Positions 8,526-37,723 of a stretch of DNA of 64,000 nt are shown one piece after another. Every line of letters begins with the position of its first letter. Position 1 is the stretch's first letter. A program made the translations under genes and the position numbers. The notes under the pieces were generated by a model. It made no database searches, was not told the DNA's origin, and saw nothing but the letters and a program-made list of their open reading frames with translations. This DNA comes from Oscillospiraceae bacterium. Its GTDB lineage: Bacteria > Bacillota > Clostridia > Oscillospirales > Oscillospiraceae. The stretch lies in the NCBI GenBank assembly GCA_902779945.1, contig CACZDN010000002.1:62001-126000 (forward strand). The letters run 5' to 3'.

Positions 8526-8554
8526 TTGAAACGCTGGAGAAAATGCGTTATAAT
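8526..8554 (+). promoter_or_regulatory. Strong sigma-A-type promoter of ybaK
   Basis: TTGAAA, exactly 17 bases, TATAAT, predicting a start near 8561 and a leader of about 30 bases. Confidence 0.8.
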
Positions 8555-8589
8555 AACAAAGTTACGAAAAATGCACCCGGGGTGGTATA

Positions 8590-9066
8590 ATGGCAGAGCA
8601 GAAAACGAATGTTATGCGCGTGCTGGATCAGAAGAAAATCGCTTATACCGCACACAGCTACCCGCACGGGGGTGAGGCTGTGGACGGCGTAACGGTCGCG
8701 CGGCTTACCGGGCTCGAACCCGCGCGGGTCTTCAAGACGCTGGTGACCCGCGGGGCAAGCAAGAAGAACTACGTCTTCGTGATCCCGGTCGCCGAGGAGC
8801 TGGATCTCAAAAAGGCAGCCAAAGCGGCGGGGGAGAAGTCCATCGCCATGATCCATGTGAGCGAGATCAACGCCCTCACCGGGTACGTGCGGGGCGGCTG
8901 CTCGCCCGTCGGGATGAAAAAGCAGTTCGAGACGTTTTATCACATAAGCTGCGAAGAGCTCCCCACCATGGCAGTCAGCGCCGGAAAAATCGGCGCGCAG
9001 GTGGAGCTTGCGCCCGCAGCCCTCATCCAAATCACACACGGCAAAACCGCCGATCTTATTGTTTAG
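8590..9066 (+). CDS. ybaK: Cys-tRNA(Pro)/Cys-tRNA(Cys) deacylase, YbaK/EbsC type
   Basis: A 158-residue trans-editing domain that hydrolyses mischarged aminoacyl-tRNA, notably Cys-tRNA(Pro). The family features VFKTLVTRG (~residue 48), [11 protein letters not shown] (~77) and [14 protein letters not shown] (~98-111) are present, the last forming part of the catalytic pocket. The length is that of a free-standing YbaK. Transcription probably starts at the 8526 promoter. uvrA begins 11 bases downstream, with no terminator between them. Confidence 0.93.
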
Positions 9067-9077
9067 GAGAAATATCC

Positions 9078-11921
<2,844 letters not shown>

Positions 11922-36726: not shown

Positions 36727-36838
36727 GCTTCAGGCGCGGCGCGTTCGCTGAGAGCGCGCTTGACAGTGTATTTGCCTGCGTGGTAAAATCAATTATAATA
36801 TACCAAAACAGAGGATTTCAAACGAAAGCGCCTGAAGC
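36727..36838. repeat. 11-bp inverted repeats flanking a promoter
   Basis: GCTTCAGGCGC at 36727-36737 and its exact complement GCGCCTGAAGC at 36828-36838 bracket the promoter at 36760-36789. Such a layout occurs in invertible promoters, but an 11-bp repeat can arise by chance at this scale. Confidence 0.35.
36760..36789 (+). promoter_or_regulatory. Strong sigma-A-type promoter, start near 36797
   Basis: TTGACA, 18 bases, TAAAAT, with TATAAT also just downstream. The next plus-strand gene is the TGPL-repeat peptide at 37199, about 400 bases away. Confidence 0.65.
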
Positions 36839-37013
36839 AGTCATGCAGGCCGGATGCGTAATATAGTCCGGCCACGGGAACGGAAGTCCGGTATGCAGCG
36901 GCACGGCGGCCTCCGTCCGAACCTTGGCCCACTCTTGCGGCAGACCCCTGTTTGTATGACACTTCTGTGACAGATGCTGTGTTAAGTTGTTCCCGCAGGC
37001 AAGAGGAACGCGA
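36797..37013 (+). other. Untranslated stretch with hairpins between promoter and mobile repeat
   Basis: No convincing gene is present on either strand. Several short stems can be drawn, for example GGCCGGA with TCCGGCC (~36849-36874) and CGGA with TCCG. It may be a leader or a small RNA driven from 36760. I cannot match it to a known RNA family. Confidence 0.3.
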
Positions 37014-37153
37014 CTAGGGCAACACCGCACAATTCGCCTGCGGCATCTCCTGGGAAATTTGCGCCCTGATTTCGTCACTTTTTCTTGAGGTACACAAAGT
37101 ACATCTGCGAAAAAGTGCCTTTATCAGAACCCAAATTTTCTCAGGATCTGCTC
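37014..37153 (+). repeat. MITE-like repeat, copy 2 left part
   Basis: The element begins GGCAACACCGCACAATTCGC at 37018, preceded by CTAG, and runs in the same orientation as copy 1 up to ~37153. Its expected last ~23 bases reappear at 37602-37624 (AGTATTGTGCGGTGTTGCC) after the peptide gene; the two parts add to about 159 bp, the length of an intact copy. The central hairpin reads GTAC-ACAAA-GTAC. Confidence 0.75.
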
Positions 37154-37198
37154 GGCCTGAGGCCGTGACTAAACAGAAATAGTAAAGGAGAGATAAAA

Positions 37199-37558
37199 AT
37201 GAACCCCGCCAACAACATCAGCCCCGAACTGCAAAAGAAGCTCAAGGATTGCAAAAGCAGAGAGGAAATGGAAAAGCTGCTTGCTGAACACGGTCTCAGT
37301 ATGGAGGAAGACATCCTGAACATCGTAGGAGGAGGCACCGGCCCCCTGGACGAGACCGGACCTCTCGGCACCGGACCTCTGGGCACCGGACCTCTGGGCA
37401 CCGGACCTCTGGGTACCGGACCTCTGGGTACCGGACCTCTCAGCACCGGGCCTCTGGGTACCGGACCTCTCGGCACCGGGCCTCTGGGCACCGGACCTCT
37501 CGGTACCGGACCTCTCGGCACCGGGCCCCTCGGCACGGGGCCTCTTAAGGACAAATAA
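37199..37558 (+). CDS. Orphan leader-plus-repeat peptide (14 TGPL units), RiPP-precursor-like
   Basis: A 119-residue protein in two parts. Residues 1-46 look like a peptide leader: a charged amphipathic helix ([20 protein letters not shown]) and the acidic [12 protein letters not shown] ending in a Gly-Gly-type cleavage motif, reminiscent of Nif11-class leaders. Residues 47-119 are TGPLDE, twelve TGPLG pentads (one TGPLS) and TGPLKDK. The repeats have many Thr and Pro and no Cys. AAGGAG lies 8 bases before the ATG. No maturation enzyme or C39-peptidase exporter is in the window. The peptide may be modified by enzymes elsewhere, or exported unmodified as an elastin-like chain. The gene is bounded on both sides by copies of the mobile repeat. 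Confidence 0.75.
37337..37546 (+). repeat. 15-bp tandem repeat encoding TGPLG
   Basis: About fourteen tandem units of the type ACCGGACCTCTGGGT with synonymous changes (GGC/GGT, GGA/GGG, CTG/CTC). All units stay in frame. Arrays of this kind are prone to gain and loss of units by slippage. Confidence 0.9.
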
Positions 37559-37601
37559 ACCGCAGCGTATTTCATCCGTGACAACTAACCGGAAACATAA
37601 G

Positions 37602-37624
37602 GCGAAGTATTGTGCGGTGTTGCC
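37602..37624 (+). repeat. MITE-like repeat, copy 2 right terminus
   Basis: GCGAAGTATTGTGCGGTGTT and the closing GCC form a right terminal repeat, joined by TTAA (37625-37628) to the left end of copy 3. Together with copy 3 it makes an 18-bp hairpin (37607-37646) that could also end transcription of the peptide gene. Confidence 0.7.
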
Positions 37625-37628
37625 TTAA

Positions 37629-37723
37629 GGCAATACCGCATAATTCGGCAAGAGCAGATCCTGAGAAAAATTGGGTTCTGATAAAGGCACTTTTTCGCAG
37701 ATGTACTTTGTGTACCTCAAGAA
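37629..37723 (-). repeat. MITE-like repeat, copy 3, truncated
   Basis: Starts GGCAATACCGCATAATTCGG and runs in the opposite orientation to copies 1 and 2. It shares private variants with copy 2 (the GTACCTCAAG block and GATAAAGGCAC), so the pair may derive from one duplication. Similarity stops near 37723, just before the 3' end of guanine deaminase, with about 64 bp missing. Confidence 0.8.

Follow-up and report, generated by a model that had tools for sequence, protein, structure and literature searches.

The window, a 64-kb stretch of DNA from an Oscillospiraceae bacterium, carries a small gene whose product is, on balance, read as an exported, leader-cleaved repeat peptide parted from its exporter. 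In the proposed mechanism, an NHLM-type ABC exporter (TIGR03796) would bind the Nif11-type leader through its C39 peptidase domain, the leader would be cut after GGG, and a 73-residue TGPL core would leave the cell, where it could serve as a signal, an antimicrobial or a surface coat. The candidate exporter is a stand-alone gene trio on contig C12 of the same genome (HlyD-like, peptidase-ABC and second ABC), which would make a split arrangement of precursor and exporter. The product is best read as a double-glycine (GG) leader repeat peptide, one of a patchy family, that a distant NHLM exporter probably serves. The leader, the core and the C12 trio were identified by sequence, as was a trio with this gene order that directly follows a TGPL precursor in another genome (locus L099), and from these we infer each step past translation, i.e. 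export, cleavage, pairing and function. The window gene draws attention to this patchy family, and the occurrence of a candidate orphan exporter and a candidate orphan substrate in one genome offers a testable pairing. The features of the gene and its flanks are collected in Table 1.

Table 1. Features of the precursor gene and its surroundings, in window positions
Feature	Position	Strand	Remarks
sigma-70-like promoter TTGACA-18-TAAAAT	36760..36789	+	410 bases upstream of start codon; candidate only
MITE-like palindromic repeat, copy A	37015..37153	+	consensus 2-140, 3' end missing
AGGAG, ribosome-binding-like site	37186..37190	+	read from sequence
precursor gene, Nif11-type GG leader + 14-TGPL core	37199..37558	+	119 aa
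leader, residues 1-46	37199..37336	+	predicted C39 cut after G46; M35 (-12), L40 (-7), V43 (-4)
core	37337..37555	+	73 aa, 14 TGPL units, no Cys
15-bp tandem array	37355..37545	+	12.7 copies, period 15
terminal fragment of MITE-like repeat	37600..37628	-	best fit is inverted 5' end
MITE-like repeat, copy B, inverted	37625..37723	-	consensus 69-167 only, 5' (outer) 68 bases missing

The initial annotation of this DNA described a 119-residue reading frame with a leader (MNPANN...NIVGGG) and fourteen TGPL units, all of which were borne out. Its remark that the peptide lacks Cys holds for the core (0 Cys) and fails for the leader, which has one (C18). A single tandem array was reported in the 64-kb window, and it lies inside the precursor frame. 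Of the 15 substitutions that separate 12 of its units, 14 leave the sense-frame residue unchanged, where one third would be expected to be silent (binomial 2e-6, assuming independence, which duplicated units violate). Because the antisense reading, (RGPVP)n, is silent to the same extent (14/15), silence alone gives no strand; that comes from the homologues, together with the leader and the ribosome-binding-like site. In L099 and in the Selenomonas genes, leucine within TGPL is encoded by CTN as well as TTR codons, a pattern consistent with selection on the sense frame. A PDB search returned a single match, at E 0.29. Upstream, the candidate promoter matches 11/12 and is followed by approximately 220 bases before the left MITE-like copy (window 36760-37010), in which no Rfam match reached the gathering score; Rfam applied to the whole window returned one tRNA and nothing else.

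The leader matches Pfam Nif11 (PF07862) at 27.9 bits alone and 24.9 bits within the whole ORF, above the cut-off of 23.8, whereas NCBIfam leader_Nif11 (TIGR03798) gives the leader 14.7 bits against a cut-off of 32.3 and the whole ORF no match. The predicted cut after G46 follows a double glycine with hydrophobic residues at -4, -7 and -12, as in substrates of C39 peptidases (PCATs), and its M, L and V at -12, -7 and -4 fit the rule of Val-4, Leu-7 and Leu-12 given for the C39 groove in the available part of the source (PMC6363468). An alternative cut after G45 would place Ser at -12. In all 11 complete leaders of the family described below, each of these three positions is V, I, L, M or F. The annotation had proposed a RiPP-type leader ending in GGG, and a GG leader of the RiPP/bacteriocin type is supported by the Nif11 score above the Pfam cut-off and by relatives that join a GG leader to TGPL, one of them directly before a C39 exporter. 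Leader homologues did not appear in the relatives sampled: 98 other relatives were queried with the ORF and the leader was matched in none. When all 99 relatives are counted, seven matched including the source genome itself, the other six only within residues 43-116. A search with the leader in 394 genomes of the order gave matches in four, own genome included; two of these look like sigma factors on reading and were set aside. A further genome with a leader match, G294, encodes three GG leaders, of which two adjoin radical-SAM-like genes. No TGPL core was present in the 29 translated genus loci with Nif11 matches (the matches outnumbered the loci).

Relatives of the peptide are scattered. A scan of 84,980 species genomes gave at least 588 stretches at no fewer than 33 loci, and among the 33 loci listed a GG precedes the TGPL core in four. 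Two of the four come from MAGs, L099 from a sheep-duodenum Clostridiales and L111 from Selenomonas ruminantium. The other two, L116 and L123, belong to one S. ruminantium record, with just nine residues from the previous stop to the core in L116; S. ruminantium ATCC 12561 carries the L123 gene. No GG leader was read in the 20 residues that precede the first TGP at 28 of the 33 loci among the matches listed, a figure that includes a few strings with GG inside long low-complexity frames, one locus without a TGP frame (L127), and six loci (L106, L110, L113, L117, L126 and L127) whose tblastn ranges extend into the query leader. At locus L131, in the MAG of an uncultured Clostridia member, three short TGPL ORFs occur, all leaderless. 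These leaderless genes suggest that the core is portable across leaders, in which case the core would be the functional unit. The same locus (8550-9170) also holds two copies of an 18-residue ORF, MGFDYPYFFYPYLEVRVK, between the three TGPL mini-genes.

Among 151 genomes of L111's family (Selenomonadaceae), ten gave a match and eight, including those of L111 and L116, have an ORF with at least two modules. Seven of these eight have a complete GG leader; G912 (L195) has the modules and no complete leader. Two further genomes, G935 and G973, have matches without any ORF of at least two modules and stand outside the main co-occurrence count given below. The complete precursors, the window and L099 included, number 11, in which L111/L123 and L198/L199 are pairs of near-copies; outside this number are L116, L184, L195 and L197, which lack a complete leader, the leaderless L131, the broken L183, and L177, L178 and L180, which repeat L111, L116 and L123. 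ETGP[LI] is present in 11/11 complete precursors compared with 3/28 other scan loci within approximately 250 bases of the match, a contrast that is only partly independent since the string extends one of the selection motifs. It occurs in 14 of 16 strings compared, the two without it being L131 ORFs. The window and L099 share the form DETGPL, and in both a GG leader is followed by TGPL and ETGP[LI]. YPY, CDP or VGPV is found in 9/11 complete precursors and in neither the window core nor L194, counts that are biased by selection of the family rows on TGP, YPY and CDP motifs.

GG leaders of 17-23 aa are found in the nine complete Selenomonadaceae precursors. The L099 leader has no Pfam Nif11 match, scores 13.8 bits for TIGR03798 and is 20% identical to the window leader over 45 residues. 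Nif11-domain proteins adjoin TGPL genes at two places in L111's family, L193 874-1287 (36.4 bits) and L201 645-1085 (34.7 bits), and they also match a double-glycine bacteriocin model below its cut-off. A double TGPL pattern was found in 1/391 genomes of the class, the source genome only. Phages and plasmids gave no match to the window ORF or to a Selenomonadaceae peptide, and patterns applied to viral DNA gave 0 matches. No description of a TGPL peptide family was found by text searches of open-licence papers. A tentative proposal, to which we give a low probability, is that TGPL peptides are an undescribed secreted modular class, in which a core of TGPL, YPY, CDP and VGPV modules would be passed among Nif11-type leaders, short GG-type leaders and leaderless forms in Clostridia and relatives of Selenomonas, and would be released as a multi-unit precursor trimmed to small repeated signals, the window gene being an expanded form. 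The window core itself looks like a nearly pure TGPLG version made by tandem expansion, without YPY, CDP or VGPV.

Such purity also suits a different and rather unlikely history, in which a once-functional GG-leader gene is no longer exported and its core is now a neutral 15-bp minisatellite kept by drift among repeats. The core lacks the modules of most relatives, TGPL-like runs without a leader arise elsewhere (28/33 among the matches listed), an in-frame stop interrupts a second GG-leader-like gene of the same genome (L183), and the sampled relatives have no orthologue. However, the frame of 119 codons is intact, all but one of the 15 unit changes are silent, and the gene keeps a ribosome-binding-like site and an intact leader with the C39 positions, all of which speak against decay.

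The exported-peptide reading is connected to a particular exporter through L099, where the precursor is followed directly by HlyD-like, peptidase-ABC and second ABC genes in that order. The L099 peptidase-ABC scores 903.6 bits for TIGR03796 (cut-off 853.3), the second ABC scores 681.5 bits for TIGR03797, below the cut-off of 709.4, and the HlyD-like protein has no NCBIfam match and is 32% identical over 85 residues to the one on C12. The source genome has two C39 exporters, on contigs C12 and C14, both outside the window. The C12 trio has the same gene order as L099, with an HlyD-like protein of 138 aa (TIGR03794 32.8 bits, below the cut-off of 156.2), a peptidase-ABC (TIGR03796 929.3 bits, cut-off 853.3) and a second ABC (709.8 bits). 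The peptidase-ABC of C12 is 51% identical to that of L099, compared with 35% for C14, whose TIGR03796 score of 790.5 bits is below the cut-off. The genome therefore holds, on C12, an NHLM-type exporter over the TIGR03796 cut-off that is not adjacent to the precursor. Sites distant from the export genes are given as a trait of Nif11-related (N11P) precursors in the available part of the report on this family (Haft et al., 2010; PMC2887384). No GG-leader gene was read near the C12 trio, where a motif screen of 18 kb, which odd leaders could escape, gave three frames in an assembly that is approximately 86% complete.

The annotation also stated that no modifying enzyme or C39 exporter is nearby. 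This holds for the window, in which neither a RiPP enzyme nor a C39 exporter was seen on reading 76 ORFs of 200 aa or more, and the two exporters of the genome lie elsewhere. Around L099, no RiPP enzyme was found among eight neighbours scanned with Pfam (ORFs of at least 80 aa in 12 kb), a scan that left out at least two ORFs, one of them kinase-like on reading. Four of these neighbours exceed a Pfam cut-off (CAAX-type protease, cyclic-nucleotide-type regulator, acetyltransferase and RibD-like), AAA-like and zinc-ribbon matches fall below it, and two neighbours have no match. The suggestion of a modified multi-core precursor consequently found no support, as no modification enzyme was recognised around L099 or in the window. 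There is a small probability that a multi-core RiPP precursor is modified in trans before export, for example by radical-SAM-like enzymes of the C14 cluster; the Nif11 leader would suit such a route and C14 has radical-SAM-like genes (labelled by reading) beside exporter genes, yet this cluster has precursors of its own with a different, NHLP-like leader (by reading), L099 lacks a recognised modification enzyme and the core has no Cys. The C14 cluster (L134 2164-13570) comprises two NHLP-like precursors, radical-SAM-like enzymes and its own C39 exporter, the enzyme and leader labels being by reading, and one of its precursors has a Cys/Gly/Ala-rich repeat core.

Pairing of the exported repeat peptide with a TIGR03796 exporter was also considered across genomes. 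Genes over the TIGR03796 cut-off number two in the L099 genome, two in the L111 genome and three in the L116 genome; the L131 genome, whose TGPL genes are leaderless, has none, and 0/14 control genomes have one. Only one of the seven exporters in the L099, L111 and L116 genomes, that of L099, lies beside a TGPL ORF, and no TGPL ORF was found in the stretches around the other six. At least two exporters (L164 and L167) have other GG-leader ORFs nearby, and the Selenomonas TGPL stretch L184 is approximately 12 kb from an exporter. Within L111's family, TIGR03796 is present in 7/8 module-bearing genomes compared with 28/70 without modules (Fisher p 0.013), the latter being the first 70 of 141 in handle order. 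With GG-leader ORFs only, the count is 6/7 genomes (p 0.026), and inclusion of G935 and G973 gives 9/10 against 28/70 (p 0.003). For one TGPL-positive genome, G998, the TIGR03796 search gave no match at E <= 1e-240. The co-occurrence lends weak support to the exporter link, because the p values ignore kinship and TIGR03796 exporters are common in L111's family.

Several known systems resemble the window gene in part. Like the N11P precursors with NHLM export (TIGR03796, TIGR03797 and TIGR03794), it has a Nif11 domain, a Gly-Gly end, an exporter of that family in the genome and a precursor far from the exporter; unlike them, its leader is 46 aa long whereas the GG position averages 70 for N11P, as far as the available part of the source describes them (Haft et al., 2010; PMC2887384). 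The window leader also falls below the TIGR03798 cut-off, its core is a Cys-free series of TGPL repeats, and no modification enzyme was recognised in its vicinity. Unmodified class II (double-glycine) bacteriocins share GG leaders with the nine complete Selenomonadaceae precursors, in which these are 17-23 aa long, and TIGR03949 matched two of the four peptides scanned weakly (15.3 and 16.9 bits, cut-off 21.5). However, TGPL peptides have no known activity or immunity gene, and their repeat modules are unlike bacteriocin cores.

Collagen-like proteins consist of GXY triplets. Those of viral contigs surfaced in the viral scan and have Gly/Pro/Thr repeats, mostly of three residues on reading, whereas the window gene has a period of 15 bp, or five residues, and a GG leader. 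Of the 20 viral-scan loci, 15 were translated, and 14 of these were rejected as TGPL relatives, their match falling inside a collagen-like frame rich in Gly/Pro/Thr. The translated frame of the fifteenth, L093, is short and non-repeat. A separate observation is L054 (G481:C119:36720), a 251-aa frame with a Nif11-type leader that ends in a Gly run and is followed by what looks, on reading, like a Hint/intein-type domain. Elastin-like proteins are composed of VPGXG units, and the units of the window are TGPLG. It is improbable that the gene encodes an elastin-like or coat-forming secreted chain whose function lies in repeat length; an almost uniform Gly/Pro pentamer over 73 aa with a net charge of -1 would suit such a chain, but nine of the ten other complete relatives contain other modules too and one unit may suffice.

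The gene lies among MITE-like repeats, whose consensus of 167 bases was taken by majority of 29 copies and folds as one long hairpin, an imperfect palindrome of approximately 167 bases (z -7.6). The left copy used as a query gave 49 match rows in its own genome, and nine copies occur in 121 kb of this genome's sequence, window included. An inverted second copy to the right of the gene, as annotated, was borne out. The annotation also described a split copy (37018-37153 plus 37602-37624) that shares private variants with the second one. The left copy differs from the consensus at 4, 21 and 41 and the right at 122, so none is common. The fragment between gene and right copy scores 43 as an inverted 5' end and 30 as a 3' end; a simple split is thus not the best fit. 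As the 3' end is missing from copy A and the 5' 68 bases from copy B, no variant is common and the fragment is best placed as an inverted 5' end, neither a split copy nor a composite cassette is demonstrated, and the two complete flanking copies of a composite transposon are not found.

Movement of the gene as a cassette by these repeats, either as a composite or as captured cargo, is accordingly highly improbable. Repeats do flank both sides and the fragment is inverted relative to the left end, but the genome has only one intact copy of the gene, the repeat is dense regardless of the gene, and synteny is not conserved in relatives bearing the amidohydrolase neighbour. An orthologue of this neighbour (E <= 1e-100) is present in 6/101 genus genomes, own included, and nine other window ORFs, the precursor among them, had no match in the stretches of the five amidohydrolase-bearing relatives. 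All four Nif11-like or GG-leader matches of the source genome (C2:99220, which is window 37220, C7:8498, C34:4023 and C19:70276) have a MITE-like copy no more than 500 bases away, compared with 8.1% of the 121 kb; the window match had been selected in advance, the four differ in type, small genes tend to occupy intergenic space and the 121 kb includes the window, so the proximity of such genes to MITE-like copies is only suggestive. At L185 8277-8420, on contig C19 of the same genome, a GG-leader-like gene with an in-frame stop lies 96 bases from a complete MITE-like copy.
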